Positions 2,392-17,633 of a stretch of DNA of 64,000 nucleotides are shown in pieces. Source of the stretch: Sanguibacter keddieii DSM 10542 (GTDB lineage Bacteria; Actinomycetota; Actinomycetes; Actinomycetales; Cellulomonadaceae); assembly GCF_000024925.1 (NCBI RefSeq), contig NC_013521.1:1922001-1986000 (forward strand), written 5' to 3'. Positions within the stretch are counted from its first letter, which is position 1. Every line of letters starts with the position of its first letter. A program made the translations under genes and the position numbers. The notes beneath the pieces were generated by a model. The model was not told the origin of the DNA and did no database searches. It saw nothing but the letters and a program-made list of their open reading frames with translations.

Positions 2392-2458
2392 GAGGGTCCT
2401 CCAGGTGGGCACAGGTCAGGGGAGCGAGCGAGCGGGGCGGCGACGCCGGGGCAGCCGC

Positions 2459-3082
2459 CTAGGGCAGGATCTCCGTCGCCGTCCAGGTCCCGTCCGCAGC
2501 TCGGTCGAACCGGGTCTTGCGTGCCGCGAGCTCAGGCCCGACGCCCTCCCACAGGTCCACCCGGGTGGCCGAGAAGTCGACCGTCGTCCACGACGGCGGC
2601 ATCGGGAGCGGTTCCTGCCGCTGCGCGTGCACCGCGACCCGAGCGGCCACCAGGTCTGCCGGCGCGGCGACGTCGGCCGACACCACCTCCTGGTCTGCCT
2701 GCCCGCCACCCGCCTCGCGCAGCACGTCGTCGTAGGCCCACGCCACCAGCCGCAGCTGCCGGGGGCGTGTCCCGTACGCCGCCACCGACTCCTCGACCGC
2801 GGCCTCGCGCGCCGTCCCGTGCAGCACCGCCTGGCGTCCCGTCTCCGGCCAGAAGAACACGCAGGCCGACCTCGGGTCGTGCCGCAGGTCTCGCGTCTTG
2901 GCCGTCGGCGACGAGCTGTGGAACCGCACACCCTCGGCACCGACCCGCGTGCTGAGGACCGTCCGTGCCTGCGGCGCACCCGACGCGTCGACCGTCGAGA
3001 AGGTCAGCGTCCGTGGGCTCGGCGAGCCGGCCTCCTCGGCCTCGGTGATCCACCGCGCCAGCGTCGTCATCGGGTCGAGCAT
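2459..3082 (-). CDS. PNPOx-fold flavoprotein, pyridoxamine phosphate oxidase-like
   Basis: This 207-residue protein has the split-barrel layout of pyridoxamine 5'-phosphate oxidase relatives. The N-terminus has TFSTVDASGAPQARTVL, then residues near 50-70 with SSPTAKTRDL, a family FMN-site feature, and a basic C-terminal segment. PdxH oxidises pyridoxamine or pyridoxine phosphate with FMN. Cluster members of this fold often act as flavin-dependent oxidoreductases on other substrates, so the pathway context argues against simple vitamin B6 salvage. GAGGAG lies 6 bases before the ATG. The stop codon of the XRE-cupin gene is 9 bases upstream, so both are probably on one transcript. A true PdxH remains possible. 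Confidence 0.72.
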   Translation of the reverse strand: MLDPMTTLARWITEAEEAGSPSPRTLTFSTVDASGAPQARTVLSTRVGAEGVRFHSSSPTAKTRDLRHDPRSACVFFWPETGRQAVLHGTAREAAVEESVAAYGTRPRQLRLVAWAYDDVLREAGGGQADQEVVSADVAAPADLVAARVAVHAQRQEPLPMPPSWTTVDFSATRVDLWEGVGPELAARKTRFDRAADGTWTATEILP

Positions 3083-3091
3083 GGGTGCTCC

Positions 3092-3820
3092 TCAGGTGTC
3101 GGGGTCTGCGCTCGCGGACCCGTGCTCGTGGTCGGTGTCACCGGCGTCCTCGGGTCCCGAGTGGACGACGAGGACGACGCACTCGTCCGTGCCGACGCGC
3201 CGGTGGCGGTGGCGGACGGAGCCGGGGTAGCCGATGCTCTGCCGGGCCTCGAGGGTGTACAGCGTGGTGGTCCGTGCTGCCTCGGGGGATGCGTCTAGGG
3301 CGGTGCCGGCCGCGCCGTAGGAGCCTTCGTGGGGGTCCGGTGCGGCGAGCTCGACCTCGAGGCGACCCGAGACGACGTACACGAGCTCGTGCCGGCCGTG
3401 TGCAAAGTAGCCCTCGAAGGTTTCTGGGACGTTAAGGAACTCGGTGACGTCTGCGCCGCCCTCGACGTGGCTGAGCAGACGGGCCGACCCGGCCTGGACC
3501 GTGAGGGCAGGGCTCTGCCCGGACACGACACCCGGACCCACCGGCGAGGTGGACGGCGGGGTGGCGGCGGCGAGGAGCGCCTGCTGCGTGGTGCCCAGCG
3601 CCTGGGCGATGAGGTAGAGCGAGCGCATCGAGGGTCGGGCGCGCCCGCGCTCGAGCTGGCTGAGGAACGAGTGCGAGAGCCCGCTCGACCCGGCGACCTC
3701 GACGAGGGTCCGTCCGAGCGCGTGCCGGCGCGCCCGGACGACGGTGCCGAGGCGCCGGTCGGCGCTCTGCTCGGGGTCCCCGGGCGGGGGAGTGGTCGGT
3801 TCGTTCGTGGTCGAGGACAT
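3092..3820 (-). CDS. XRE-family regulator with C-terminal cupin domain
   Basis: This 242-residue protein carries an N-terminal XRE helix-turn-helix at about residues 25-80 (LSHSFLSQLERGRARPS is the recognition-helix region). A cupin domain follows at about 115-225, containing FAHGRHELVYVVSGRLEVEL and later PGSVRHRHRR. HTH-cupin proteins usually sense a small ligand through the cupin and control a neighbouring catabolic operon. This gene is divergent from the MBL-fold gene, and the shared region holds a palindromic site (3879-3902) that recurs 10.5 kb away in the other divergent promoter of the cluster. It is therefore the best candidate regulator of both halves and of itself. The direction of control, repression or activation, cannot be read from sequence. 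Confidence 0.88.
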   Translation of the reverse strand: MSSTTNEPTTPPPGDPEQSADRRLGTVVRARRHALGRTLVEVAGSSGLSHSFLSQLERGRARPSMRSLYLIAQALGTTQQALLAAATPPSTSPVGPGVVSGQSPALTVQAGSARLLSHVEGGADVTEFLNVPETFEGYFAHGRHELVYVVSGRLEVELAAPDPHEGSYGAAGTALDASPEAARTTTLYTLEARQSIGYPGSVRHRHRRVGTDECVVLVVHSGPEDAGDTDHEHGSASADPDT

Positions 3821-3870
3821 CGGTCACACATCCGGTTCCTGGTCGTTACGTCGACGAAACAGTCGCTGCC

Positions 3871-3876
3871 TACGGT
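3871..3876 (+). promoter_or_regulatory. Possible -10 element for the MBL-fold/transport operon
   Basis: TACGGT fits the actinobacterial TANNNT -10 pattern and lies 2 bases upstream of the palindromic site at 3879. A factor bound there would overlap the start of transcription. No convincing -35 element was seen. A similar arrangement (TAGCGT just before the site) is found on the minus strand at the second copy. Confidence 0.35.
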
Positions 3877-3878
3877 TC

Positions 3879-3902
3879 TGAATGTTAGTCACATCAACAT
3901 CG
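3879..3902. promoter_or_regulatory. Putative operator, copy 1
   Basis: The plus strand reads TGAATGTTAGTCACATCAAC then ATCG. Its reverse complement contains ATGTTGATGTGACTAACAT, an inverted repeat with 8-base arms, 6 of 8 matching, around GTG. The site lies in the divergent promoter between the XRE-cupin gene and the MBL-fold gene. It is 22/24 identical, in reversed orientation, to the site at 14406-14429. Confidence 0.75.
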
Positions 3903-4011
3903 CTCCGAGCGGGTACGACCCGCCGCACGCACCGCACCTTCGGCCTCCGCCCCGCAGCCCCACCCCCGGCAGCCCGCGCTGGCCCCCCGTCCCACGACAG
4001 CAGGAGGTGAC

Positions 4012-5055
4012 ATGACGACCACGACCACAGGCACCACGACAGGCCCCGGCCCCACGCACGACGGGTACGCCACGTGCGCCCCGGCAGCCGACTGGTTCCA
4101 CGTCGCCGACCTCGGCGACGGCATCACGCTGATCTCCGAGCCCGGGCACGTCAACTGCTTCCTCGTGCAGGGCACCGAGCGCGCCCTCCTCTTCGACACC
4201 GGCACCGGCCTCGCCCCCGTCTCCGAGGTGGTCCGCCACCTCACCGACCTCCCCCTCCTGGTCGTCGTGTCGCACGACCACCTCGACCACCGGGGCGGGA
4301 ACGCCGACGTGGTGGCGCACGCCGACGAGCTCGCGCTCGTCGGCATCGCCGCCCACCCGACCGCCCTCGAGCCGGGCTCGACCCTCCACGGCGCGGTCGA
4401 CCGCGGGTTCCTCGACGCGTACGCCCAGGCGATGCGCACCGTGGTGGACCAGTACGAGACCTTCGCCGCCCTCGACGCCCAGAGCTTCTACGTCCTGCCC
4501 ACCCTCGACGCGGGCGACAGCCCGCTGCGCCCCGTCCCCGACACGACGTCGTGGACGGTCCCGGCAGTCCGGCCCGACGTCGCGCTCGCGGACGGCGACG
4601 TCCTCGACCTCGGCGGCCGGTCGCTGCGTGTGGTGCACACCCCCGGGCACAGCCCGGACTCGCTCTGCCTCGTCGACGACGCGCACGGCGTGCTGCTCGC
4701 AGGGGACACCGTCGTCGCGGCCGCCTCGTGGCTGCACGGCGCGGGAGCCGACCTCGACGACTTCGCCCGCTCGACGGCCGCCCTCGCCGGGCTGCCGCTG
4801 CGCCGGGTGCTCACCGCCCACAACCTCTGCGCCGAGCGCCCGCCGTCCTACGTCCGCTCGGTGGCCCAGACGGCCGAGCGGGTGCGCGCCGGCCAGAGCA
4901 CGCCGAGGCCGGGGACCGACCTGCTGGGCAACCCCGTCGACCGCCACACCCACGACGGCGTGACGCTGCTGCTGCCGCCCAGCCCCACGTCGCCCAGCCC
5001 CACGTCGTCCGCCGCACCATCCAGGACTGACCCGCAGACCGAGGAGATCGCATGA
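4012..5055 (+). CDS. MBL-fold metallohydrolase
   Basis: This 347-residue protein contains the zinc-binding motif SHDHLDH (H88, H90, D92, H93). It also has the later ligands HTPGHSPDS and LLAGDTVV, followed by an AHN near the C-terminal third, as in metallo-beta-lactamase-fold hydrolases. The N-terminus (DWFHVADLGDGITLISEPG) resembles unclassified MBL proteins that hydrolyse esters or lactones. A strong AGGAGGTGA ribosome site precedes the ATG. It is the first gene after the putative operator, and its stop overlaps the next start (ATGA), so it leads the transport/hydrolase operon. A ring-opening or lactone-hydrolysing step is plausible but not shown. Confidence 0.85.
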   Translation: MTTTTTGTTTGPGPTHDGYATCAPAADWFHVADLGDGITLISEPGHVNCFLVQGTERALLFDTGTGLAPVSEVVRHLTDLPLLVVVSHDHLDHRGGNADVVAHADELALVGIAAHPTALEPGSTLHGAVDRGFLDAYAQAMRTVVDQYETFAALDAQSFYVLPTLDAGDSPLRPVPDTTSWTVPAVRPDVALADGDVLDLGGRSLRVVHTPGHSPDSLCLVDDAHGVLLAGDTVVAAASWLHGAGADLDDFARSTAALAGLPLRRVLTAHNLCAERPPSYVRSVAQTAERVRAGQSTPRPGTDLLGNPVDRHTHDGVTLLLPPSPTSPSPTSSAAPSRTDPQTEEIA

Positions 5056-6473
5056 ACCAGGTCATCACGCTCGGCGCACCGGACGGTGCGCCCCGGGCGA
5101 CGGGGCTGACCCCGGACCGCATCACCGGGGTCCGGCTCGTCGACGGGACCCTCGTCGACCTCACGCTCGCCGCGGGACGCATCACCGGCATCGTGCCGGC
5201 GGCCTCGGGGTCCGCCGCCGACGGTGCTCCCGACGGTGCCACCGAAGGCGTCACGCTCGACGCGTCCGGGTGGCGGGCGCTGCCGGCCACGACGGAGCCG
5301 CACGCCCACCTCGACAAGGCGCTCTCGGCGGAGCGCGTCGACTACTTCTCCGGGACCACCCAGAACGACCTGCCGGCCGCGATCGAGCAGTGGAGCGGCC
5401 TGCTGGAGAGCATCGACGAGGAGGACATCCGCACCCGGGCCACCCGGGCGGTCTCCCGCTATGTCGCGCAGGGCACCACCACGGTCCGCACGCACGTCGA
5501 CTTCCCGCGGACGGGCGACCCGCTGCGCGGCCTGCGGGCGCTGGTGGCGGTCCGCGAGGCGCTCGCCGGGGTCCTCACGCTCCAGATCACCGGCCTGACC
5601 GGGTTCCACACCCCCGGGTCGGTCATCGACGACGCGGTCGACCTCGGCCTCGACGTGCTCGGCGGGTGCCCGCACCTGTCGCCCGACCCGCACCACGAGA
5701 CGACGCGCGTGCTCGACGTCGCCGAGCGCACCGGCCTGCCCGTCGACCTCCACACCGACGAGCAGACGGGCACCGAGCACCTCGACGTCGTCGACCTCGC
5801 CCAGCAGGTGATCTCCCGCGGCCTGACGCAGCGGGTGACCGCGAGCCACTGCGTCCGGCTCGGCTCGCTGCCCCCCGACGAGCTCCGCCCGGTGCTCGAC
5901 CTCGTCGCCCGGGCCGGGATCGGGATCGTCACGCTGCCCATCACCAACCTGTACCTCCAGGGCTGGGACGCGACGCACCTCGCCCCCCGCGGCCTCACCG
6001 CGGTCCGGGCGATCCTCGACGCGGGCATCCCGCTCGCCGCCGGTGCCGACAACCTGCGGGACCCCTTCAACCCCGTCGGACGCGCCGACCCCTACGAGAC
6101 GACGTCGCTGCTGGTGACCGCAGGCCACCTCACGCCGGTCGAGGCGCTCGCCGCGGTGACGACCGGGCCGCGGACGGTGCTCGGTCTGCCGGCGGTCCTC
6201 GACGTCGGCCCGACCCGCCCGGCCGCCCGGCTCTGGGCCGACGGGGCACCCGCCGAGCTGCCCGTCGCCGACCTGGTGCTCGTCCCCGACGTCGACCTGG
6301 GCGACGTGCTCGCCGGGAACGTCGGCTCCCGGGTCGTGCTGCACGGCGGGCGGGTCCTCGCCGACACCCGGACGGCGCAGACCCTCGACCTCAGCGCACG
6401 GCACCACCCGGCCGGCGCCCCCGGCGAACCTGTCTCGACCTCCTTCCGCCCAGCCCTCGAGCACGTGAGGTGA
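5052..6473 (+). CDS. Cytosine-deaminase-like amidohydrolase
   Basis: This 473-residue protein is a metal-dependent TIM-barrel amidohydrolase of the CodA branch. It shows the metal pair H84/H86 in EPHAHLDKA, a third ligand in DLHTDE, ASHCV, and the Asp loop GADNLRDPFNPVGR, which parallels the CodA loop. CodA-type enzymes deaminate cytosine, isocytosine, creatinine or related pyrimidines and imidazolones, and some members hydrolyse cyclic amides. The gene overlaps the MBL-fold gene by 4 bp. Five bases separate it from the ABC ATPase gene, suggesting its substrate is what the transporter imports. The exact substrate is unknown. Confidence 0.83.
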   Translation: MNQVITLGAPDGAPRATGLTPDRITGVRLVDGTLVDLTLAAGRITGIVPAASGSAADGAPDGATEGVTLDASGWRALPATTEPHAHLDKALSAERVDYFSGTTQNDLPAAIEQWSGLLESIDEEDIRTRATRAVSRYVAQGTTTVRTHVDFPRTGDPLRGLRALVAVREALAGVLTLQITGLTGFHTPGSVIDDAVDLGLDVLGGCPHLSPDPHHETTRVLDVAERTGLPVDLHTDEQTGTEHLDVVDLAQQVISRGLTQRVTASHCVRLGSLPPDELRPVLDLVARAGIGIVTLPITNLYLQGWDATHLAPRGLTAVRAILDAGIPLAAGADNLRDPFNPVGRADPYETTSLLVTAGHLTPVEALAAVTTGPRTVLGLPAVLDVGPTRPAARLWADGAPAELPVADLVLVPDVDLGDVLAGNVGSRVVLHGGRVLADTRTAQTLDLSARHHPAGAPGEPVSTSFRPALEHVR

Positions 6474-6478
6474 CCACC

Positions 6479-7294
6479 ATGAGCACTCCGACCTCCAGCA
6501 CGGCGACCACGACCAGCACGGCGACCACCAGCACCCCAGACCGTATCCAGCACGTCTCCCAGACCCGGACCCTCGTCATGGAGGGTGTCTCCAAGACCTT
6601 CTCGACGGGGACCGTCGCCCTGACCGGCGTCGACCTGACCGTCGCGGCAGGGGACTTCGTGTCCGTGGTGGGACCGTCCGGCTGCGGCAAGTCCACGCTG
6701 CTGCGCCTCGCGTCCGGGCTCGACGACGCGACCGAGGGCACGGTCGAGGTCAACACCGACTCGACCAGCTACGTGTTCCAGGACCCGACGCTGCTGCAGT
6801 GGCGGACCGCGCAGAAGAACGTCGAGCTCATCGGCGAGCTGCGGTCGCGGTCCAAGATCGACCGGCGCCGCGCCGCCCAGGAGGCGCTCGAGCTCGTCGG
6901 CCTCGGCGGCTTCGAGCGGCAGTTCCCGCGGCAGCTCTCCGGGGGGATGCGCATGCGCGTCTCGCTGGCCCGCGCGCTCGTCGCCGAGCCTGACCTCTTC
7001 CTCTTCGACGAGCCCTTCGGCGCCCTCGACGAGATCACCCGGCTGACCATGCAGACCGAGCTGCAGCGGCTCTTCGCGCTCAAGCAGTTCGCCGGACTGT
7101 TCATCACCCACTCCGTCTCCGAGGCGGTGTACCTCAGCACCCGGGTGATCGTCATGAGCGGTCGCCCCGGCACCGTCGTGGCCGACCTCCCCGTGCCGTT
7201 CTCCTACCCCCGCCCGCCCGAGCTGCGCTTCGACCCCGCGTTCGCCGAGCTCGCCGGGACCGTGTCCGCAGCCCTCGAAGGAGACCACCGATGA
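6479..7294 (+). CDS. ABC transporter ATPase, NitT/TauT (SsuB/ThiZ-like) type
   Basis: This 271-residue ATP-binding subunit has Walker A GPSGCGKST, Q-loop YVFQDPTLLQW, signature LSGGMRMRVSLARAL, Walker B LFLFDEPFGALDE and the H-loop ITHSVSEAVYLSTR. The QDPTLLQW segment and EAVYL typify the nitrate/sulfonate/pyrimidine-precursor importer family. The first 40 residues are a Thr/Ser-rich tail not seen in most homologues. The ATG at 6479 is preceded by GAGGTGA. The stop overlaps the permease start by 4 bp. It energises uptake of the cluster substrate together with the next two genes. Confidence 0.93.
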   Translation: MSTPTSSTATTTSTATTSTPDRIQHVSQTRTLVMEGVSKTFSTGTVALTGVDLTVAAGDFVSVVGPSGCGKSTLLRLASGLDDATEGTVEVNTDSTSYVFQDPTLLQWRTAQKNVELIGELRSRSKIDRRRAAQEALELVGLGGFERQFPRQLSGGMRMRVSLARALVAEPDLFLFDEPFGALDEITRLTMQTELQRLFALKQFAGLFITHSVSEAVYLSTRVIVMSGRPGTVVADLPVPFSYPRPPELRFDPAFAELAGTVSAALEGDHR

Positions 7295-8268
7295 GCGCAG
7301 AGACCCGCACGCCCGCGACGGGCACGTCGCCCACGGCCGAGAACGCGACGCCGGTGACCGGGCAGCCGGGTGCCGTGACCGCGCCCGGTGCCGCGCCCGC
7401 GACGTCCGCCGGGGCCACGTCCACGCCGACGACCAGCAGCCCGCAGGGCTCTCGGGGCTCTCGACGCCGCCGCGCGGTCCCGGCAGCGGTGCGCAGCGCC
7501 ACGGGCTCGGCGCTGCCGGTCCTCGGGGCGCTGGGCGTCGCGATCGGGCTCTGGTACGCCATGACCTACCTGGTGCTGCCCGAGGGTCGACGGTTCCTGC
7601 TCCCGCCCCCGCACCAGGTCCTCACCGAGTCCGTCCTCGACTGGTCGAAGCTCGAGCCGATGCTCGTGGCGCTCGCGCTCACGGCCCAGGTGGCGCTCAC
7701 CGGCCTGGTGATCGCCGTGGTCCTGGGCATCAGCCAGGCGATCCTCATGAGCCAGGCGCGCTGGCTCGAGCGGTCCCTCTACCCCTACGCGGTGATCTTG
7801 CAGACGATCCCGATCCTGGCCCTGGTGCCGCTCATCGGCCTGTGGTTCGGCTTCGGCTTCACCTCGCGGGTCATCGTCTGCGTGATCATCGCGCTGTTCC
7901 CGATGATCTCGAACACGCTGTTCGGCATCCAGTCGGCCGAGCCCGCCGCCCACGACCTGTTCACCCTCAACAAGGCCACCCGGGCGCAGCGGCTCTGGAA
8001 GCTCCAGATGCCGGCGGCCGTCCCGTCGATCTTCGCCGGGCTCAAGATCTCGGCGGGCCTGGCGGTCATCGGCGCGATCGTCGGCGACATGTTCTTCCGC
8101 CAGGGCGCACCGGGCATCGGCAGCCTGCTCGACGTCTACCGGGCGCGGGTCGAGTCGGAGAACCTGCTCACGGCGATCGGTCTCGCGTCGCTGTTCGGAG
8201 TCCTGGTCTTCGCCTTCTTCACCGCGGTCGACAAGGCGGTCCTCAGCCGCTGGTACGGCAAGCGCTGA
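7291..8268 (+). CDS. ABC transporter permease, NitT/TauT type
   Basis: This 325-residue protein is a binding-protein-dependent transport permease. About six hydrophobic segments are visible (near residues 75-95, 125-150, 165-188, 193-212, 250-272 and 295-318). An EAA-type coupling loop sits around residues 215-250 (LNKATRAQRLWKLQMPAAVP). The first ~65 residues are an unusual Thr/Ala/Pro-rich cytoplasmic extension. It forms the membrane channel for the importer with the ATPase (4-bp overlap upstream) and the lipoprotein downstream. Confidence 0.92.
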   Translation: MSAETRTPATGTSPTAENATPVTGQPGAVTAPGAAPATSAGATSTPTTSSPQGSRGSRRRRAVPAAVRSATGSALPVLGALGVAIGLWYAMTYLVLPEGRRFLLPPPHQVLTESVLDWSKLEPMLVALALTAQVALTGLVIAVVLGISQAILMSQARWLERSLYPYAVILQTIPILALVPLIGLWFGFGFTSRVIVCVIIALFPMISNTLFGIQSAEPAAHDLFTLNKATRAQRLWKLQMPAAVPSIFAGLKISAGLAVIGAIVGDMFFRQGAPGIGSLLDVYRARVESENLLTAIGLASLFGVLVFAFFTAVDKAVLSRWYGKR

Positions 8269-8446
8269 CCGCCTGACCACAGGCCTGCAGCCGCCTACCT
8301 CTGCACCTGCTCCCGCACCTACCCCCACAGTCCAGCGACCCGCACGAGCGGGCCGCTCCACCGAGCACACCCTCGTGCCGGTGACCAGCGCACCAGACCG
8401 CCACACCCGTCCCCCCATGCTCCGCCCCTCACCAAGGAGTCGCACC

Positions 8447-9628
8447 ATGATCCGCTCCAGAGCAACCGTCGTCGCCGGGTCCACCCTCACGCTCTTCTCC
8501 CTCCTCGCCCTGAGCGCCTGCTCGTCGGGCGAGGACGAGGCAGCCGCCTCCGCACTGGAGGTCCCGGCCGCCGAGGCGGGGTCTGCCCTCGACCTCGCCG
8601 ACGTCTGCCCGGCGACCGTCGTCATGCAGCAGGACTGGGAGCCCGAGGCCGAGCACGCCGGCATGTACTCCCTCGTCGGCTCCGACTACACGATCGACAC
8701 CGACAAGAAGCGCGTCACCGGCTCGCTCGTCACGCAGGGCGTGGACACGGGCGTCGACATCGAGGTCCGCCCCGGCGGCGCAGCGATCAGCTACCAGTCG
8801 GTCACCTCGCAGATGTACGTCGACCAGGACATCATGCTGGGCGCCGTGAACACCGACGGTGCCGTGGCGTCGTCGGGGAACCAGCCCGTGACGGCGGTCG
8901 TGGCACAGCTCAACATGAGCCCGCAGGTCATCATGTGGGACCCGGACGCCTACCCGGGCGCCACCACCGTCGAGGAGATCGCGGCCGACGGCGCGACGAT
9001 CGTCGTCTCGGGCGGCGGCAGCAACCTCGGTGCGCTGCTGTCGGGCAACGGCACCGTCCCAGCCGACCAGGTCGACCCGTCGTACAACGGCGACCCGTCG
9101 CGGTTCGTGGGTGACCCGACCATCGCGCAGCAGGGCTTCGCCACGGCCGAGCCGTACGTCTACGAGAACGAGGTCTCGGCCTGGGGCAAGCCCGTCGCCT
9201 ACCAGCTCGTCTCCGAGGTGGGCTACACCATCTACCCCGAGCCCCTCGCGGTGCGCACCGCCGACCTCGAGGAGTACCGCCCCTGCCTCGAGAAGCTCGT
9301 CCCGATCCTCCAGCAGACCCAGATCGACTACCTGTCCGACCCCGACGCGACCAACGCGCTGATCGTCGAGCTCGTCGAGAAGTACAGCACCGGGTGGGTC
9401 TACTCCCAGGGGGTGGCCGACTACTCGGTCCAGGCGATGCAGGACCTCGGGATCGTGCAGACCGACACCTCGGGGATCTTCGGCGGCATGGACGAGGCGC
9501 GCATCCAGGAGGTCATGGACACCTTCACGCCGATCCTCGAGGCCTCCGGCACGGACGTGGCCGACGACCTCGTGCCCTCGGACCTGTTCACCAACGAGTT
9601 CCTCGACACCTCCATCACGCTCGACTGA
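8447..9628 (+). CDS. ABC transporter substrate-binding lipoprotein
   Basis: This 393-residue protein begins with a lipoprotein signal peptide: a basic start MIRSR, a hydrophobic stretch, then the lipobox LSAC with the lipidated cysteine near residue 25. It continues as a NMT1/ThiY-like periplasmic binding fold (MQQDWEPEAEHAGMYSL), a family binding thiamine-pyrimidine precursors, sulfonates or other heterocycles. The ATG at 8447 is chosen because AAGGAG lies 8 bases upstream and the signal peptide starts there. The 178-bp gap behind the permease shows no clear promoter. A GC-rich hairpin follows the gene. The ligand is not predictable. Confidence 0.9.
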   Translation: MIRSRATVVAGSTLTLFSLLALSACSSGEDEAAASALEVPAAEAGSALDLADVCPATVVMQQDWEPEAEHAGMYSLVGSDYTIDTDKKRVTGSLVTQGVDTGVDIEVRPGGAAISYQSVTSQMYVDQDIMLGAVNTDGAVASSGNQPVTAVVAQLNMSPQVIMWDPDAYPGATTVEEIAADGATIVVSGGGSNLGALLSGNGTVPADQVDPSYNGDPSRFVGDPTIAQQGFATAEPYVYENEVSAWGKPVAYQLVSEVGYTIYPEPLAVRTADLEEYRPCLEKLVPILQQTQIDYLSDPDATNALIVELVEKYSTGWVYSQGVADYSVQAMQDLGIVQTDTSGIFGGMDEARIQEVMDTFTPILEASGTDVADDLVPSDLFTNEFLDTSITLD

Positions 9629-9667
9629 GCGTCCGCAGGTCTCGACGCCGCCCCGGAGGCTCTCCCC

Positions 9668-9700
9668 GCGGGCGGGCCCGTACCTCGTAGGCCCGCCCGC
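9668..9700 (+). terminator. GC-rich hairpin after binding-protein gene
   Basis: GCGGGCGGGC pairs with GCCCGCCCGC (10-11 bp) around a 13-base loop. There is no T-run, so it is either a weak terminator or a 3' stabiliser that raises expression of the binding protein relative to the downstream oxidase. Confidence 0.5.
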
Positions 9701-9773
9701 ACCCTGCCGGCTCAGCCGCCCCTGCCCCGCCCCGTCCCGCCCCGTCCAGTCCCGCCCCGAACGAAGGATGCGT

Positions 9774-11138
9774 ATGTCCCTCACACCCGAGGCCGTCGCC
9801 TCGTTCGCCGACCTCGTCACCCGCGAGCTCGGCGAGGGAGTCGCGAGCACCGACCCCGCCCTCATCCTCAAGTGCTCCTCCGACTGGTCCAAGATGTCGC
9901 CGATCCTCCAGGAGAAGCTGCCCCCCGGGCGGTTCCCCGCGGACCTCGTGGTCCGTCCCACCTCGACCCGGCAGGTGCCCGCCTTCCTGCGCCTGGCCTA
10001 CGAGCACGACGTCCCGGTGGTGCCACGCGGTGCCGGCACCGGGAACTACGGGCAGGCGACCCCCTTCACCGGGGGAGCGGTCCTCGACCTGCGCGGCCTC
10101 GACCAGGTGCTCGAGGTCGGCGACGGCTTCGTCACCGCCCAGGCCGGAGCGAGGCTGACGGTCGTCGACGACGCGGTGCGCGCCACCGGGCAGGACCTCT
10201 GGATGTTCCCGTCCACCAAGGGCTCGAGCATCGGTGGCTTCGTCGCCGGCGGCTCCGCCGGCACGGGCACGGTCGAGCACGGCACGACCGCCGACGGGTT
10301 CGTCCGCGCGATGACCATCGCCCCCTGTGACGGGTCCGGGACGGACTTCCGTGTCGAGGGGAGCGCCACGGTCCCGTACATCCACACCTACGGGGTCACC
10401 GGGGTCGCCACCGAGCTCACGGTGCGGACCGACCCGGCGCGCGAGTGGGTCGCGCTGTACGCCGCCTTCGCCGACTACGGGCAAGCGCTCGCGGTGCACC
10501 GCACCCTGGCCGACCTCGCGGTCCTGCCCCGGCTGGCGTCCCTCGACGAGCCCGGACTCGTGGGGACCCTGCCGGCCCCGGTCGAGCTCGACGCGACCCG
10601 CACCAGCCTGCGCGTCATCCTCGAGGTGTCGACCGTCGACGAGGTCCGCCGGCGCGTGGTCGCCGCGGGCGGCGAGGTGGTGGCCGTCTACGAGGACTAC
10701 GCCGAGACGGACCGGCTCTCGTCGATGTCCTACAACCACCCCGTGTACTTCCTGCAGCAGTCGGGGTACCCGTGCTTCCACCTCGAGGTGGGCGGCCGTG
10801 CCCTGTGGGACACCCCGGACCTGGTCCGCACGGTCTACCCGAACGCCATGGTCCACCTCGAGCTGCGCACGCAGGGCCCGCTCGGCATGTACGTCGCCGA
10901 CTACGAGTCCGAGGCGCAGGTCCTCGCCGGCTTCGAGGCCCTCGAGGCGCTCGGCGTCGGCATCCACAGCCCGCACCAGTGGATGGTCGACCGCCACGTC
11001 GCCGAGGCGCTCGTCACCGCCCCCGTCACAGACCCCAAGGGTCTGCTCAACCAGCTCAAGCTCGACCGAGACGGTGCCGCCCCCGCACGGGTGGACACCA
11101 GGAACGAGGTTCTCGTTGCCCGCACCCCAGCGTCCTGA
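9774..11138 (+). CDS. FAD-binding oxidoreductase (GlcD/VAO-type)
   Basis: This 454-residue protein has a FAD_binding_4 domain (about residues 55-235) with VVPRGAGTGNYGQATP as the pyrophosphate-binding segment, then a cap domain. The family oxidises hydroxy acids, alcohols or amines with FAD (glycolate oxidase, VAO). A strongly conserved GSSIGGFVAGGSAGTGTVEHG stretch supports function. Two ATGs compete: GAAGGA at 9763-9768 overlaps the ATG at 9768 but is 5 bases before the one at 9774, so the latter is chosen. It probably performs the oxidative step of the pathway. Its stop lies inside the next gene. Confidence 0.85.
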   Translation: MSLTPEAVASFADLVTRELGEGVASTDPALILKCSSDWSKMSPILQEKLPPGRFPADLVVRPTSTRQVPAFLRLAYEHDVPVVPRGAGTGNYGQATPFTGGAVLDLRGLDQVLEVGDGFVTAQAGARLTVVDDAVRATGQDLWMFPSTKGSSIGGFVAGGSAGTGTVEHGTTADGFVRAMTIAPCDGSGTDFRVEGSATVPYIHTYGVTGVATELTVRTDPAREWVALYAAFADYGQALAVHRTLADLAVLPRLASLDEPGLVGTLPAPVELDATRTSLRVILEVSTVDEVRRRVVAAGGEVVAVYEDYAETDRLSSMSYNHPVYFLQQSGYPCFHLEVGGRALWDTPDLVRTVYPNAMVHLELRTQGPLGMYVADYESEAQVLAGFEALEALGVGIHSPHQWMVDRHVAEALVTAPVTDPKGLLNQLKLDRDGAAPARVDTRNEVLVARTPAS

Positions 11139-11916
11139 CGCCCCCAGGTTCATCGACCTCACCTACCAGCAGGTCGGCGCCCTGCCGCCCAGCACCGTCG
11201 CGGTCCTCCCGCTCGGCGCGATCGAGCAGCACGGCGCGCACCTGCCCGTCTCGACCGACCACCTCGTGGCGTCGAGCGTCGCCGAGGCGGCCGTGGCCAC
11301 CGTCGCCGAGTCCGGTGCCGCGCACGCCCTGCTGCTGCCCGGGCTGGCGTACACCAAGTCCGACGAGCACCACTGGGCACCGGGCACCATCTGGCTCGGC
11401 TGGGAGACGCTCATGGCGACCCTGGTCGACATCGGGCGCTCGCTCGCGGTGTCGCCGGTCGAGCGGCTCATGTTCGTCAACGGCCACGGCGGCAACTCGG
11501 CGCTCGGCCAGGTGGCCTGCCGCGAACTGCACCGGCGGTTCGGCCTCAAGACCTTCTTCGCGCACTCGAGCATGCCGCGCGACCAGGGCGGGGGCCTGGC
11601 GCCCGACGTCGACCCCGAGAACGGCTTCGGGGTGCACGGGGGACGGGGGGAGACCTCGATGGTCCTGCACCTGCGGCCGGACCTCGTCCACATGGACCTC
11701 GCCACCCGGCAGGTCCCCGAGCGGATGGCGCAGTACGAGCACATCGGCTTCGGCAAGGCCGTGAGCTTCGGCTGGACCTCCGACGACTTCGGCCCTGGCG
11801 GCGTGATCGGCGACCCGACCGGTGCGACCGCCGACCACGGCAAGGTGCTCTTCGAGGGAGCCGTGTCGAAGGTCGCCGCTGCCATCGTCGAGGCGAGCGT
11901 CTTCGAGATCGGCTGA
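11116..11916 (+). CDS. Creatininase-family amidohydrolase
   Basis: This protein of about 266 residues carries the creatininase metal motif PLGAIEQHGAHLPVSTDH, then FVNGHGGNS and HGGRGETSMVL, which supply the remaining His and Glu ligands. Family members open cyclic amides (creatinine) or remove formyl groups (FAPy deformylase). No ATG or GTG lies ahead of the motif. The TTG at 11116, with ACGAGG upstream, gives the expected length and a 23-bp overlap with the oxidase gene, implying coupling. It probably hydrolyses a cyclic amide or N-formyl intermediate. The substrate is unknown. Confidence 0.82.
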   Translation: MPAPQRPDAPRFIDLTYQQVGALPPSTVAVLPLGAIEQHGAHLPVSTDHLVASSVAEAAVATVAESGAAHALLLPGLAYTKSDEHHWAPGTIWLGWETLMATLVDIGRSLAVSPVERLMFVNGHGGNSALGQVACRELHRRFGLKTFFAHSSMPRDQGGGLAPDVDPENGFGVHGGRGETSMVLHLRPDLVHMDLATRQVPERMAQYEHIGFGKAVSFGWTSDDFGPGGVIGDPTGATADHGKVLFEGAVSKVAAAIVEASVFEIG

Positions 11917-11961
11917 CCCGCACCCAACGCCACGACGCACCGCAGCGTGACGCGTGGAGCA

Positions 11962-12005
11962 CGAGAAGAGGTCCGTACCCCGGGAGGGGCACGGACCTCT
12001 TCTCG
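11962..12005. terminator. Bidirectional terminator between convergent cluster halves
   Basis: CGAGAAGAGGTCCGT pairs perfectly with ACGGACCTCTTCTCG (15 bp). The loop can form four more pairs (CCCC/GGGG). It sits between the creatininase gene (plus) and the formamidase gene (minus) and would end both transcripts. Confidence 0.85.
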
Positions 12006-12015
12006 CGCCGGTGCC

Positions 12016-13254
12016 TCAGACCTGCGGGGGAGCCGAAGGTCCCCGGAGCTCACGGAGGTCGGCCTTGCGGATGGTCCCGTGGACCCCGCACACCTGGTCG
12101 ACCACCTGCGACACGGCGAAGTCACCGGCCGCCGAGAGATAGGCGTAGGCGTGGGCGGGGTGCATCCCCTCCCGCTCGAGGAGCGCGAGAGCGCACCGCG
12201 TGGCGTCGCGCACCGCCTCACCGAGGTCGGCGTCCAGACCGATCGCCACGAGCAGCTCGTCGGTCTCCGCCCACGGTCCGGTCGGACCCGGGGTAGTCGT
12301 GGGACCTGGCGCGCTCGCGGACGCGTCGCCCGCGCCGTGCGCGTCGCCCTGCCGGACGAGGTCGAAGCGCAGCAGGGCGCGCAGCGGCGCCTCGAAGGCG
12401 GTGAGCGCGACCTCCCCGTCACCCTGGCTGAAGTGCGGGTCGCCCACGTAGGCGAGGGCGCCGGGCACCTGGACGGGCAGGTGCAGGGTCGACCCGACCC
12501 CGAGCACGGAGACGTCGAGGTTGCCCCCGTGCTGCCCCGGTGGGACGGAGTGGGGGCGGGTGCCACCGGCGACCGCGACCCCGGTCGTCCCGAGGAACGG
12601 GGCGAGCGGGAACCGCACCCGGCGCGGGTCGCCAGGCCCGGCGGGGAGGGAGCCGGAGAGGCCGTCCGGGCCGTCCTCGACCGTGCACAGGAGCGAGACC
12701 GGACCGGGCGAGCGCGGGTCGGGCATCTCTCCCGGGAGGGCACCGCGCCCGTGCCGGCTCGACACGACCCCGTACCCGGCACGCAGGCGCAGGTCCACGA
12801 CGGTCACCGACAGCACGTCACCGGGCAGGGCGCCGCGGACCTCGACCGGTCCGGTGACCACGTGCGGACCGTCGACCGCGGGGTCGTGGGCGACCTCCCG
12901 GGCCACCCGGACCGCGTCGTCGAGCACGTCCTCGCCCGGCACGCCGTGCCCGGTGAAGAACGCCACCGGGTCGCGGCCCTGGTCCTCGAGGATCCCCTCG
13001 TGGCTCACCGTGTCGACCCAGACCTCCTGGCCCGGGTCGACGCTCAGCACGGGGGAGTCGGACGCGCACGGCAGCCGGCCCCACAGCACCGTCTCCGGCG
13101 TCGCCGGGAGGTACCCCGGGACGTCGGACGGTGCGACCGGCCGGTCGCCGAGCGGCTGCATGACGCGCACGCCGGACGCGACGGACGGCGCCGCCCCCGG
13201 GAGGGACGGCGCCGCCGCGGTCTCGCTGCTGGACATCGTCTCGGTGCTGGTCAC
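12016..13254 (-). CDS. Acetamidase/formamidase family protein
   Basis: This 412-residue protein matches the FmdA/AmdA family. Visible hallmarks are QHGGNLD and GDPHFSQGDGEV, which hold the family's metal and catalytic residues, plus RVRFPLAPFLG. Formamidases release ammonia and formate from formamide; acetamidases act on acetamide. A Gly/Pro/Thr-rich insertion lies near residues 305-325. The GTG at 13254 is chosen because GAGGG stands 7 bases upstream, inside the end of the cupin gene. It is probably the last step, collecting nitrogen from a small amide made by upstream ring cleavage, which is inference. Confidence 0.85.
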   Translation of the reverse strand: MTSTETMSSSETAAAPSLPGAAPSVASGVRVMQPLGDRPVAPSDVPGYLPATPETVLWGRLPCASDSPVLSVDPGQEVWVDTVSHEGILEDQGRDPVAFFTGHGVPGEDVLDDAVRVAREVAHDPAVDGPHVVTGPVEVRGALPGDVLSVTVVDLRLRAGYGVVSSRHGRGALPGEMPDPRSPGPVSLLCTVEDGPDGLSGSLPAGPGDPRRVRFPLAPFLGTTGVAVAGGTRPHSVPPGQHGGNLDVSVLGVGSTLHLPVQVPGALAYVGDPHFSQGDGEVALTAFEAPLRALLRFDLVRQGDAHGAGDASASAPGPTTTPGPTGPWAETDELLVAIGLDADLGEAVRDATRCALALLEREGMHPAHAYAYLSAAGDFAVSQVVDQVCGVHGTIRKADLRELRGPSAPPQV

Positions 13255-13264
13255 GCGCGAGCCC

Positions 13265-13711
13265 TCAGACCGCCGTCGGTGCGAGCGAGGCCACCAGGTG
13301 ACCCAGGTCCTCGGCGGTCAGCGGGGCCGGGGTCCCGTCGGTGACGAGCCTCGCGAAGCCGCCGTCGTTCGCCATGATCGTGATCGTGTAGAGACGCTGG
13401 TCCGCGGAGGTGTTGAGGATCCGGTGCTCCGACCCGGGCTGCAGGATCAGCACGTCCCCGGCGACCAGCTCGTGCACGTCCGCGTCGCTGTGCGCCTCCG
13501 CCTGCCCGGAGAGCACGATGAAGATCTCCGCCGAGTCCTCGTGCGAGTTGAGCGGCTGCGCGCCGCCCGGCTCCCAGATCTCGAGGAACACGCTCGTGCC
13601 CGTCCCGTGCGACGGCCCCGCGAGCTCGGCCAGCCGGACCGTGTCGTCGGGGGAGATCAGGTAGCCGGGGATGTCGGAGAGCTTGCGGATGATGGGTGCT
13701 GCGCCGGACAT
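13265..13711 (-). CDS. Small cupin-domain protein
   Basis: This 148-residue single-domain cupin has the first motif as NSHEDSAEIFIVLSGQAEAH and the second as PGSEHRILNTSA, with candidate metal ligands H in NSHE, E in AEIF and H in SEHR. Such proteins serve as metal-dependent dioxygenases, isomerases or ligand-storage proteins. It lies between the flavin reductase and formamidase genes on the same strand and is 10 bases from the latter, so it belongs to the pathway. Its reaction cannot be predicted. Confidence 0.8.
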   Translation of the reverse strand: MSGAAPIIRKLSDIPGYLISPDDTVRLAELAGPSHGTGTSVFLEIWEPGGAQPLNSHEDSAEIFIVLSGQAEAHSDADVHELVAGDVLILQPGSEHRILNTSADQRLYTITIMANDGGFARLVTDGTPAPLTAEDLGHLVASLAPTAV

Positions 13712-13834
13712 GGTGGTTCCTCTCGACGTGCGGACGGGGCGGTGGTGCGGGCGGGGCGGTGGGGCTTCGGTGGCTCTTCGGTGACTGATGGCTGGAGCGG
13801 GGGAGCACGGTGGGGCGGGACAGGGCCCGACGGC

Positions 13835-14383
13835 TCAGGCCGCCGGGCGGGTCGGCAAGGAGTGGAAGGTGCGGGCGAGGTAGCCGAGCGCGTGCGGGTG
13901 CTCCTCCTCGGGCCGCAGCACCTCGGTGACGTGGCCCAGCACGAGCGTGTGGTCACCGGCCTCGACGACCCGGGACACGGTGCACGCGACCGCACGGACG
14001 CTGTCCCGCGGCAGCCAGGGCAGCCCCTCACGCGTGGTCGCCCGCGCGACCGGCCCCGACTCCGGGGCGAACTTGTCCTCCGCACGGCTGGCGAAGGCCG
14101 AGGCCACCCGGGAGGCGTGCCCGCCGAGGACGTTGGCCACGAAGGCACCCCGGGCCAGCAGGGCCGGGAGGGTGCGCGACGTGTTGTCGACGCACACGCC
14201 GAAGATCGGCGGGTCCATGCTCACGCTGAACCCGGTCGTGACCGTCAGCCCGGTCGGCGTGCCTCCGTCGTCGGTGGTGATGACGCAGACACCCCCGGCG
14301 AGGGTCGACATCGCCTCGCGGAACGCGGCGCCGACGTCCTGCCCGGGCAGCGTGCCGGTGATGGTCCGGACGACAGTGCTCAC
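13835..14383 (-). CDS. Flavin reductase-like (RutF/HpaC type)
   Basis: This 182-residue protein has the flavin-reductase split-barrel fold. It contains REAMSTLAGGVCVIT, GLTVTTGFSVSMDPP (FMN/FAD site), NTSRTLPALLARGAFVANVLG and, near the end, LGHVTEVL. Such reductases feed reduced FMN or FAD to a partner monooxygenase. No two-component monooxygenase is visible in the window, so the partner is either elsewhere or one of the flavoproteins here. The GTG start has AGGAGG 5 bases upstream. The promoter region contains the second copy of the putative operator, making this the first gene of the leftward right-half operon. Confidence 0.87.
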   Translation of the reverse strand: MSTVVRTITGTLPGQDVGAAFREAMSTLAGGVCVITTDDGGTPTGLTVTTGFSVSMDPPIFGVCVDNTSRTLPALLARGAFVANVLGGHASRVASAFASRAEDKFAPESGPVARATTREGLPWLPRDSVRAVACTVSRVVEAGDHTLVLGHVTEVLRPEEEHPHALGYLARTFHSLPTRPAA

Positions 14384-14405
14384 AGGTACCTCCTCGTGCT
14401 CTCGA

Positions 14406-14429
14406 CGATGTTGATGTGATCAACATTCA
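14406..14429. promoter_or_regulatory. Putative operator, copy 2
   Basis: The core ATGTTGATGTGATCAACAT (14408-14426) is a perfect inverted repeat of 8-base arms around GTG. It lies between the divergent flavin reductase and AtzB-like amidohydrolase genes. On the minus strand a TAGCGT -10-like hexamer stands just before it. It matches the site at 3879-3902 in 22 of 24 positions, so one regulator probably binds both. Confidence 0.8.
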
Positions 14430-14619
14430 CGCTAGAGGCGATGTGTTACAGACGAGAAGACCCCGGTTTCCGGCGTGTAAACGTTGTGGAACGACCACGT
14501 GAGACACGCCCAGACGCCGCCACCAGCACCGTAGTGTCCGGGACAGCCGCCGACGCGAGCACGCCTACGCCTCCCCACCCGGAGCGACCTCGACGACGCC
14601 GGCACACCAGGAGCCTCCT

Positions 14620-16206
14620 GTGACCACCGCTACGACCCGCCCCACCTCCGCACCACGCCTGACCATCGTCAACGCGCTCCTCCTCCCCATGGCCGACCCC
14701 GGCACCACCACCCACCCCGACTGGTACGTCGGGTGGCTCACCGTCGGCCACGACGGACGCATCACCGGCATCGGCCCCGGCGAACCGCCCACCACCACCG
14801 CCACCGGAGAGGTCTCCGAACCCGACGGCGCTCGCGGACCTGCCGTCGACCAGGGCGAGGTCTTCGACGCGCGCGGTGCGATCGTCGCCCCGGGGTTCGT
14901 CTCCGCGCACAGCCACATCTACACCTCAGGGCTGCGCGGCCTGGCGCACTCCGAGACGCTCTACCCCTGGGTGCTGAAGAACAACGAGGCGCTGCTCGGC
15001 TCGGGCGCCGAGGACGTCTACTGGTACACGCTCCACGGGAGCCTCGACTTCGTCGACAACGGCATCACCTCGGCGTACAACTTCACGCACTCGCGCGTCG
15101 CCTGGCTCTACGACGCCGCCACCGGGCACAACGCACCGGCGCGCATCCGTGGCACCGACTACGTGACGCGCCAGCTCGACGGGTGCGTCGACGCAGGCCT
15201 GCGCGTGGTCCACAGCGTCCGGCTCGACGACGAGGCGTTCACCGAGGCGGAGGCCCTCGACGCCTTCGCCCAGACCGTCGAGGACAGCCTGACCCGTGCG
15301 CCTGCCGACCAGCACCTCGGGACCTCGATCATGGGGGCCGTCCAGTGGTCGGCCGCCGCGCGCACCGCCGAGCTCGAGGCGCTGACGATGCGCACCCACC
15401 GGGTGAGCAACCAGGCGCACTTCGTCGAGACGGCCGAGAACCTCGACACCCAGCGCGCCAAGTTCGACTGGTACGACGCCGCAGGAGCGCTCGGGCCCAC
15501 CTTCCTCTTCGGGCACTTCGTGCACCCGACCGACCACATGGTGGCCCGCGCCGTCGAGACGGGCAGCGCCATGGTGTGGCAGCCGACCTCCAACGGTCGG
15601 CTCGGCTCGGGGATGGCCGACGTCGCACGGTTCCGCGACCTCGGCATGCGGATCGGCATGGGGCTCGACGACCAGTCCTGCACCGACGTGTCCGACCCCT
15701 TCCAGAACATGCGCATCGGCCTCTACACGGTCCGCGCCCGGCACAGCGACGCCTCCGTCATGACCCCGCGCGAGATCCTGCGCATGCACACCCTCGGCTC
15801 CGCAGAGGTGCTCGGCGCCGCCGCGTCGGTCGGCAGCCTCGAGGTGGGCAAGCAGGCCGACCTGCTCGTCGTCGACCCCCGGCACCCCGACACCGGCCCC
15901 GTGTGGGACGTCTACGCGACCTACGTCATGGCCTGCGGGCTCCGGAACCTCACGCGCGTCTACCAGGGAGGGCGCCTCGCCTCGCGCGACGGCGTCTCGA
16001 CGAACCCGCTCGCACCGCAGGCCACGCTCGAGCTGCACGCACGCATCGTCCACGGTGCGCGGTCCGAGGGCATGCACCTCGACCACGTCCCGGACGAGGC
16101 GGTCCTCGAGCGCGCCGCCGCGAGACGGGGCCACGTGCTGCCCGTGCTGCCCGTGCCCTCGGAGCGTGGCCGATCCGTCCAAGACCTCGCAGCCCAGCCC
16201 CGCTAG
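14620..16206 (+). CDS. AtzB/guanine-deaminase-type metal amidohydrolase
   Basis: This 528-residue TIM-barrel amidohydrolase shows all expected metal ligands: H97/H99 in SAHSHIYTSG, the third His in NQAHFVET, the fourth in FGHFVHP and the Asp in GMGLDDQS. This pattern fits the branch holding hydroxydechloroatrazine ethylaminohydrolase (AtzB), TrzN, 8-oxoguanine and isoxanthopterin deaminases, and SsnA. These enzymes remove an amino or other group from an aromatic N-heterocycle. The GTG start is set by CAGGAG 6 bases upstream. It is divergent from the flavin reductase and shares its operator. It probably performs an early ring-substituent hydrolysis. Confidence 0.84.
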   Translation: MTTATTRPTSAPRLTIVNALLLPMADPGTTTHPDWYVGWLTVGHDGRITGIGPGEPPTTTATGEVSEPDGARGPAVDQGEVFDARGAIVAPGFVSAHSHIYTSGLRGLAHSETLYPWVLKNNEALLGSGAEDVYWYTLHGSLDFVDNGITSAYNFTHSRVAWLYDAATGHNAPARIRGTDYVTRQLDGCVDAGLRVVHSVRLDDEAFTEAEALDAFAQTVEDSLTRAPADQHLGTSIMGAVQWSAAARTAELEALTMRTHRVSNQAHFVETAENLDTQRAKFDWYDAAGALGPTFLFGHFVHPTDHMVARAVETGSAMVWQPTSNGRLGSGMADVARFRDLGMRIGMGLDDQSCTDVSDPFQNMRIGLYTVRARHSDASVMTPREILRMHTLGSAEVLGAAASVGSLEVGKQADLLVVDPRHPDTGPVWDVYATYVMACGLRNLTRVYQGGRLASRDGVSTNPLAPQATLELHARIVHGARSEGMHLDHVPDEAVLERAAARRGHVLPVLPVPSERGRSVQDLAAQPR

Positions 16207-16216
16207 CCTCGGACGC

Positions 16217-16609
16217 ATGACTCCTCGACTCGACCTCGTCGGCCTCGTCACCGCCGACATGCCCCGCTCGCTCGCCTTCTACCGCCTCCTCGGCCTCGAC
16301 ATCCCCGCAGAGGCCGACACGGAGCCGCACGTCGAGGTCACCCTGCCCGGAGGGCTGCGCCTCGCCTGGGACACCGTCGACACCATCCGCAGCTTCGACC
16401 CCGGGTGGACGCCTCCCACCGGAGGCCACGCCAGCTCGCTGGCCTTCCTCTGCGACTCGCCCGCCGAGGTCGACTCTGTCACCGCGTCCCTCGAGGCCGC
16501 GGGCACCACCGTGCACCACCAGCCCTGGGACGCCTTCTGGGGGCAGCGCTACGCGACCGTGCTGGACCCCGACGGCAACCCCGTCGACCTCTTCGCCCCG
16601 CTCGGCTGA
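16217..16609 (+). CDS. VOC (glyoxalase/bleomycin-resistance) family protein
   Basis: This 130-residue protein has the paired beta-alpha-beta-beta-beta modules of the vicinal oxygen chelate superfamily. It starts LVGLVTADMPRSLAFYRLLG and ends RYATVLDPDGNPVDLF, the classic C-terminal signature. Roles range from dioxygenases and isomerases to binding proteins. It follows the AtzB-like gene by 10 bases and may be cotranscribed. Its last 61 bp overlap the convergent AraC-like gene. Confidence 0.85.
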   Translation: MTPRLDLVGLVTADMPRSLAFYRLLGLDIPAEADTEPHVEVTLPGGLRLAWDTVDTIRSFDPGWTPPTGGHASSLAFLCDSPAEVDSVTASLEAAGTTVHHQPWDAFWGQRYATVLDPDGNPVDLFAPLG

Positions 16610-17391: not shown

Positions 17392-17432
17392 CACGCAGCC
17401 CGCTCGGCCGAGCCCGACGCTCGGCGAGGCGG

Positions 17433-17448
17433 TCGAACACGTGTTCGG
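17433..17448. promoter_or_regulatory. LexA (SOS) box upstream of the YdjM-like gene
   Basis: TCGAACACGTGTTCGG matches the Gram-positive/actinobacterial LexA consensus CGAACRNRYGTTCG in every position. A possible -10 (TAACCT, 17457-17462) lies just downstream, so bound LexA would cover the promoter. The box is about 180 bp before the ATG of the YdjM-like gene and 42 bp before the divergent AraC-like gene. Confidence 0.8.
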
Positions 17449-17570
17449 GTCGGTGATAACCTCGGCTCTCCCGCCGACGGCACGACGCCCCAGCGCCGGC
17501 AGCCAGCCGACCCGGAGCCGAGCCTGGGCCGGCCCGACGGCACGTCCCGCACCACCCGAGGAGCACCCGA

Positions 17571-17633
17571 GTGAACGCCCTACGCGCCCGACGCGCCGCC
17601 ACCCTGCGCACGGCAAGGGGCTCGCGCCGATGA
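17571..17633 (+). CDS. Possible 20-residue Arg-rich leader peptide
   Basis: A GTG preceded by GAGGAG (8-base spacing) opens a 20-codon frame containing seven arginines. Its TGA overlaps the ATG of the YdjM-like gene (ATGA, 17630-17633). The next gene itself has only a distant AAGGGG, so translation may depend on coupling to this short frame. It could also be the start of a mis-assigned upstream reading. No homologue is recognised. Confidence 0.4.
   Translation: MNALRARRAATLRTARGSRR

Follow-up and report, generated by a model that had tools for sequence, protein, structure and literature searches.

The XRE-cupin proteins of Pseudomonas aeruginosa are described as local repressors that mostly occupy core promoters next to the genes encoding them and that, where this has been determined, recognize palindromic motifs (PMC7901475). 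Here we analyze two copies of a palindromic element in a 64,000-nucleotide stretch of the Sanguibacter keddieii DSM 10542 genome (NC_013521.1, positions 1,922,001 to 1,986,000), referred to as the window, whose own numbering is used throughout; the copies stand in promoters of a gene cluster that itself encodes an XRE-cupin protein. The Pseudomonas repressors (PsdR, PauR, ErfA and others) place a helix-turn-helix (HTH) domain before the cupin, have palindromic motifs and mostly core-promoter sites, bind next to their own genes and mostly have one or two targets (PMC7901475), and the S. keddieii locus appears to follow them in all these respects. It differs in gene set and phylum and in having an operator phased with a GlnR-type box; the comparison covers domain order, motif symmetry, site placement and number of targets. 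The actinomycete GlnR regulon (glnA, amtB, nirB; PMC10704036, PMC5826061) shares with this locus the element gTnAC-n6-GAAAC upstream of the -10 region and a link to nitrogen acquisition, whereas here a pathway-specific palindromic operator directly follows the -10 hexamer at each promoter. From the Rut pyrimidine and s-triazine/biuret pathways we recognize a RutB/BiuH-like hydrolase, a RutF-like flavin reductase and an AtzE/AtzH-like amidase, but neither RutA nor a cyanuric-acid hydrolase is present among the cluster genes. The kinds of regulator are already known; the operator and the combination are new. In the literature consulted, mostly open-access, no description was found of this operator, its gene set or its pairing with a GlnR box; the papers retrieved deal with other systems or with nitrogen metabolism in general, and the sections considered of PMC4617892, where nitrogen-limited Mycobacterium smegmatis genes are listed, do not name the cluster.

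Based on sequence comparison, we consider it highly probable that the two sites are operators of an XRE-cupin repressor that controls a nitrogen-scavenging cluster, with GlnR as a second, activating input. A broader reading is somewhat favored: a widespread actinobacterial two-input promoter in which GlnR and the XRE-cupin repressor act in fixed phase as an AND gate, requiring both nitrogen scarcity and the substrate, and serve an uncharacterized scavenging pathway for ring nitrogen or cyclic amides, with a difference in strength between proximal and distal operators built into the MBL-type clusters.

An earlier sequence-only reading of this DNA reported that 3879-3902 and 14406-14429 agree at 22 of 24 positions in opposite orientation. 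Direct reading of the window bears this out: 3879-3902 reads TGAATGTTAGTCACATCAACATCG and the reverse complement of 14406-14429 reads TGAATGTTGATCACATCAACATCG. The perfect 8-3-8 inverted repeat claimed for the second site is likewise present, with its core at 14408-14426 (ATGTTGATGTGATCAACAT, site 2), and the core at 3882-3900 (ATGTTAGTCACATCAACAT, site 1) departs at two positions both from it and from the 19-bp search core ATGTTGATNNNATCAACAT. Both sites lie in divergent promoters next to -10-like hexamers, as had been proposed. Site 1 stands between the XRE-cupin gene (ATG at 3820, minus strand) and the gene of an MBL-fold hydrolase (ATG at 4012, plus strand), with the hexamer TACGGT at 3871-3876 (plus strand); site 2 stands between a flavin-reductase gene (start at 14383, minus strand) and an amidohydrolase gene (start at 14620, plus strand), with TAGCGT at 14429-14434 (minus strand). 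Searched at up to three mismatches, ATGTTGATNNNATCAACAT matched the window twice, whereas 100 shuffles averaged 0.00 matches, and the next best candidates in the window have six mismatches. The whole genome (one contig, 4,253,413 bases) holds two matches at up to two mismatches, both at these positions, and two further ones at three mismatches, while the reversed control pattern of the core gave none. Many unrelated copies across the genome, which had been named beforehand as a reason to abandon the operator, were therefore not found: there are two sites at up to two mismatches in 4.25 Mb. That the two sites are unrelated inverted repeats alike by chance, to which we give next to no probability, is ruled out by the absence of shuffle matches, the two occurrences in the genome and conservation across families.

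Some further occurrences deserve mention in their own right. The three-mismatch site L003 (G000:C1:1855948) lies about 0.8 kb past the 3' end of another XRE-type gene of the same genome. A third site beside the window's amidase unit was sought, and nothing below six mismatches is present; the amidase gene there follows the XRE-cupin gene and a PNPOx-family gene on the same strand. In the Verrucomicrobia metagenome-assembled genome JAPLUA01 the palindrome recurs, always spaced by CAG/CTG, in 14 stretches (L064, L068, L070, L078, L083, L095, L102, L111, L132, L147, L150, L159, L167 and L169); these are probably a dispersed repeat unrelated to XRE-cupin proteins.

The sequence-only reading had named the XRE-cupin gene as the candidate regulator, and the joint distribution of site and gene across genomes supports this choice. 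All co-occurrence counts given here take species as independent and are not corrected for phylogeny. Among 200 genomes of the organism's own family, GTDB's Cellulomonadaceae, 29 carry the site at up to two mismatches and 16 carry it perfectly. In the 61 of these that were also searched with the protein, the perfect site is present in 9/9 genomes with an XRE-cupin relative at E<1e-20 and in 0/52 without one (p 6e-11, a value subject to the same assumption), the threshold having been chosen after the next relative was seen at E 1e-12; in one genome (G070) perfect site and XRE-cupin gene are on different contigs. In a sample of 394 genomes of the class, each of the five with a perfect site has, on the contig that bears it, an XRE-cupin relative at E<=1e-60, and 14 of the 32 with a site at up to one mismatch have a linked relative. 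Viewed from the protein, 24 genomes of the class have a close relative, of which 14 carry a site at up to one mismatch on the same contig and three (G491, G353, G342) carry one at two to three mismatches. The exact motif was found in at least 117 public stretches. Among those listed, 29 are actinobacterial by title, and an XRE-cupin relative (phmmer E<1e-10, within 2 kb) accompanies the motif in 23 of these 29, compared with 0/88 of the other listed stretches by the same criterion. In L133 and L174 the relative is 9.6 and about 13 kb away; the remaining four of the 29 are L084, L124, L148 and L149, and in the genome of L124 an XRE-cupin relative is located elsewhere and its promoter carries the four-mismatch variant CTGTTGACGTGGTCAACAA. 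Another family retains the site in an unchanged layout, and G228 retains it at three mismatches. The search for the 19-bp core suggested earlier thus shows a motif that is rare in its genome and linked to this gene set in other actinobacterial families.

The palindrome could alternatively be read by a regulator encoded elsewhere, the XRE-cupin gene being merely a member of a conserved cluster. An AraC-type regulator gene at 16549-17826 of the window, with a counterpart near the distal site in G439, lends this some color, but among the mapped stretches such a gene was matched only in G439 (L174, L240), whereas the XRE-cupin gene is present in cluster after cluster. Moreover, site presence largely tracks the recognition-helix signature of the XRE-cupin protein, and the P. 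aeruginosa proteins bind beside their own genes (PMC7901475). We regard a different regulator as quite unlikely, the least probable of the three functional alternatives discussed here.

The XRE-cupin protein (3092-3820, minus strand), the proposed repressor, combines an N-terminal HTH_3 domain (39.5 bits, cut-off 23) and a C-terminal Cupin_2 domain (28.6 bits, cut-off 27.2) in a single chain. Its structure model (pLDDT 81.3) shows helices followed by strands and resembles 1y9q, an HTH_3 regulator of Vibrio cholerae, with a TM-score of 0.71 by target length; HTH-cupin epoxidases rank first by E-value in Foldseek, and a sequence search of the PDB with this protein gave nothing useful. In 21/21 aligned relatives, which were selected for their linked sites, residues S49, H50, F52, S54, Q55 and E57 of the recognition helix (HSFLSQLE, residues 50-57) are invariant, as are the cupin residues H141, E145 and H204. 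We take the latter three to be the cupin metal triad. The motif-linked proteins inspected have [LI]SH[PS]F[LIV]SQ in the recognition helix; in genus g79, six paralogues read L/VSVPFLSQ, and the flanks examined there contain no site. The operator adjoins the XRE-cupin protein's own gene, and the same holds in relatives.

Several observations weigh against a strict pairing of operator and protein. In the class sample, 18 of the 32 genomes with a site at up to one mismatch lack a linked XRE-cupin gene, and in G434, one of the 14 linked genomes, the site is not surrounded by cluster genes; inexact sites are therefore often chance occurrences. Conversely, seven of the 24 genomes of the class with a close relative have no recognized site beside the gene and keep LSHPFLSQ (G470, G546, G363, G428, G332, G549 and G572; six come from family f36 and one is a relative at order level). 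For G470 and G546 the scan, at up to three mismatches, covered the whole genome, and for the other five it covered about 1.5 kb of flank. L044 likewise keeps LSHPFLSQ without a recognized site. Since several f36 relatives retain LSHPFLSQ without a recognized site, the helix signature is not sufficient. A palindrome search around the motif-less relatives found no shared alternative operator, with one exception, GTGTTGATGCCATGAACAC upstream of the amidase gene in G342. Disappearance of the motif from conserved clusters was another outcome that had been held to count against the operator. The motif is mostly retained; against this stand the seven genomes with no recognized site beside the gene.

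Alignment of the flanks revealed a second element upstream of the operator, gTnAC-n6-GAAAC, which had escaped the sequence-only reading. We refer to it as GlnR-type because it matches the published GlnR box, gTnAc-n6-GaAAc (PMC10704036). At promoter 1 the box GTTACGTCGACGAAAC (3845-3860, plus strand) matches at 9/9 positions, is one of six exact matches in the genome and ends 10 nt before the hexamer TACGGT of the MBL operon, which is assigned by consensus match and conservation and in turn ends 5 nt before operator 1. At the flavin-reductase promoter a box matching at 8/9 (TTTACACGCCGGAAAC, 14466-14481, minus strand) is located further upstream, and a second half-box, GTAAC (14445-14449, minus strand; replaced by GAAAC in G040 and G070), stands 10 nt before TAGCGT, the hexamer of the flavin-reductase operon, which is 2 nt before operator 2.

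This arrangement recurs in 53 promoters that we scored, all of them selected for carrying a linked site and eleven of them from close Curtobacterium-type relatives. A GlnR-type box of at least 8/9 is present in 41 of the 53, compared with 1.4% of first-order Markov resamples. In those 41 the distance from box to operator is 21 nt in 29, 18 nt in 4, 22 nt in 3 and another value in 5, and the gap between box and hexamer is exactly 10 nt in 31. A TAnnnT hexamer is found in 40 of the 53, starting 11 nt ahead of the operator in 29 promoters, 8 nt ahead in 8, 10 nt ahead in 2 and 12 nt ahead in 1; across the set, 2-6 nt separate the hexamer from the operator downstream of it. The composite pattern GAAAC-n10-TAnnnT-n2-5-ATGTTnnTnnnATCAACAT, scanned over 396 genomes of the order, gave 13 matches in 10 genomes and none for the reversed control. 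Seven of these 10 genomes had not been used to define the pattern, four of them sharing a genus with a defining genome. The five of the seven that were examined (G743, G640, G822, G683 and G672; not G741 and G750) all hold the cluster in near-identical gene order with a site at both ends, apart from a missing small-cupin match in G683 and G672 and a missing distal amidohydrolase in G822.

The same spacing occurs at nitrogen genes of this genome, which encodes GlnR (L266; E 2e-87 to 8hig and 2e-27 to 4o1h, named GlnR). The six exact GlnR-type boxes are at promoter 1, at glnA, between nirB and nirD, and at three places without an assigned nitrogen gene, the assignments being based on 677 bits for GlnA (cut-off 429), 85 for NirD (75) and a partial 392 for NirB (578). 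At glnA, nirD and nirB the promoter-proximal GAAAC is exactly 10 nt before TACGTT, TAGCGT and TACGGT, respectively, and both promoters of the window have the same geometry, GAAAC or GTAAC followed after 10 nt by TAnnnT. In the 64-kb window G[AT]AAC-n10-TAnnnT occurs three times on both strands, and two of these are the promoters described. In Streptomyces coelicolor, GlnR has its amtB site at the -35 position (PMC5826061), and the GTTAC half is placed likewise here. About 5 kb from the nirB/nirD box, L282 (G000:C1:85638) encodes a uroporphyrinogen-III-synthase-like protein with an OmpR-type DNA-binding domain. It resembles NnaR.

Some promoters depart from the canonical composite, and these count against a uniform GlnR input. 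Twelve of the 53 promoters lack a forward box of 8/9, five of them scoring 7/9 and seven 6/9 or less; the seven are four amidase promoters, two of Trebonia and one of G494, and three of the four amidase promoters carry the box inverted at 8/9. Seven of the 53 have a match of 8/9 on the reverse strand as well. At promoter 2 the full box is displaced, 39 nt away from the operator, and GTAAC occupies the canonical position. Upstream of amtB in this genome the arrangement is GTCAC-n6-GTAAC-n17-GAAAC, with no TAnnnT at 10 nt.

The GTTAC/GAAAC element might not be GlnR's at all: it could bind a different member of the OmpR family or be a conserved promoter feature of another kind, and the operator would then stand alone. 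Other OmpR-family regulators can read related boxes, and both the amtB arrangement and the three exact boxes without an assigned nitrogen gene would fit this alternative. However, the element fits the published box, exact boxes with the shared 10-nt spacing to TAnnnT are found at glnA and nirB/nirD, which are named GlnR targets (PMC10704036), a GlnR gene is present in the genome, and the -35 placement has its precedent at S. coelicolor amtB (PMC5826061). We consider this alternative unlikely and retain GlnR as the probable second input.

From the geometry we infer how the two inputs may be combined. A dimer of the XRE-cupin protein would bind the 8-3-8 palindrome, the half-sites of which are 11 bp apart, that is, one helical turn. 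The operator would cover the likely transcription start, 2-6 bp downstream of the -10 hexamer, so that its occupation by the repressor would prevent open-complex formation at the promoters of the MBL and flavin-reductase operons; the same sites would probably also repress the divergent units that run from the XRE-cupin gene to the RutB-like gene and from the amidohydrolase gene. A compound of the pathway, held in the cupin domain, may release the repressor. Under nitrogen limitation GlnR would switch both promoters on through half-boxes, one of which is 10 nt before the -10 hexamer, and the promoters would behave as an AND gate. With the operator starting 2-6 nt past the hexamer, the simplest interpretation is repression by occlusion. 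An XRE-cupin protein that uses the same operator to activate, or both to activate and to repress, is conceivable, as the regulatory sign is not fixed directly by sequence and the same operators face divergent units. Yet this position at the catabolic promoters is the one expected of a repressor, the place of an activator is already taken by the GlnR-type boxes, and repression is the mode of action of every P. aeruginosa XRE-cupin regulator whose regulon has been determined (PMC7901475). We therefore give activation only a small chance and prefer repression.

The sites were further mapped in 20 genome regions and nine public stretches. In most of them a site immediately precedes the leading gene of a unit (MBL-fold hydrolase, cytosine-deaminase-like protein, ABC transporter, flavin reductase, cupin, formamidase or amidase). 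Exceptions are G434, which has no cluster, and G353, where a two-mismatch site is not beside a matched gene. Where the unit of the amidase and the RutB-like hydrolase is separated from the XRE-cupin gene (G228, G439, G430, L120), it has a site of its own with one to three mismatches; in G743, G640 and G822 the amidase unit has its own site despite an adjacent PNPOx gene, and in G683 and G672 it has none. In twelve MBL-type clusters (the window, G040, G070, G082, G228, G439, G430, G743, G640, G822, G683 and G672) the site next to the regulator always has its imperfection in one and the same half (ATGTTA), and the distal site of these clusters is perfect except for one mismatch in G430. G438 and Trebonia, which have other gene orders, do not show this pattern. 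The imperfect proximal site would be explained if it served as a weaker operator for autoregulation or supplied the XRE-cupin gene with a -10 element (TAACAT). The imperfect half of site 1 (3882-3887) reads TAACAT toward the XRE-cupin gene.

The sequence-only reading had joined the cluster through a shared operator, a view that stands, and had the regulon reading outward from the two control points, a view that does not: there are four units, two reading outward and two converging inward, with operon limits deduced from strand and spacing. Leftward from site 1 the XRE-cupin gene is followed by genes for a PNPOx/PhzG-like protein of the FMN oxidase family (2459-3082), a single protein that joins an AtzH-like domain to an AtzE-like amidase (784-2412) and a RutB/BiuH-like amidohydrolase of isochorismatase fold (17-628, start codon uncertain), all on the minus strand. 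The inward operon from site 1, on the plus strand, begins with the MBL-fold hydrolase (4012-5055) and continues with a cytosine-deaminase-like amidohydrolase (5052-6473), a nitrate/taurine-type ABC transporter ATPase (6470-7294), a permease (7291-8268), a protein at 8375-9628 (start codon uncertain), a FAD-linked, GlcD-like oxidoreductase (9768-11138) and a creatininase/MftE-like hydrolase (11080-11916, start codon uncertain). The protein at 8375-9628 had no sequence match in Pfam, NCBIfam, PHROGs or PDB and is placed as the substrate-binding protein of the transporter by position and a lipoprotein-like N-terminus. The operon converging on the MBL operon from site 2, on the minus strand, consists of the flavin reductase (13835-14383), a small cupin protein (13265-13711) and a formamidase/acetamidase-like protein (12016-13254), and a TRZ-ATZ-like amidohydrolase resembling 8-oxoguanine deaminase (14620-16206, plus strand) reads outward from the same site.

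The enzyme families point to nitrogen-ring or amide chemistry. NCBIfam scans of the cluster identified no pathway enzyme at a curated cut-off: AtzE (TIGR02715) reached 180 bits against 425.75 and BiuH 89.7 against 370, and the RutB and RutF matches were likewise below their curated cut-offs. No luciferase-family (RutA) match was found among the scanned cluster proteins (17-16206), and no genome-wide search for RutA was made. With the proposed regulation, an unnamed and widespread actinobacterial gene set would gain a regulator, an operator, defined transcription units and a likely role in nitrogen scavenging. Its substrate could be sought through the compound that releases the XRE-cupin protein from the 19-bp site. 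The locus also offers a compact and phylogenetically deep case in which one core promoter with fixed spacing apparently answers both to a global activator for nitrogen and to a local sensor of the substrate.

Two observations concern the flavin reductase. The window's enzyme has no obvious monooxygenase partner within the cluster. In G494 the site precedes the gene of a luciferase-type monooxygenase (L254:10630-11820), which directly follows the operator and encodes a plausible partner for the flavin reductase.

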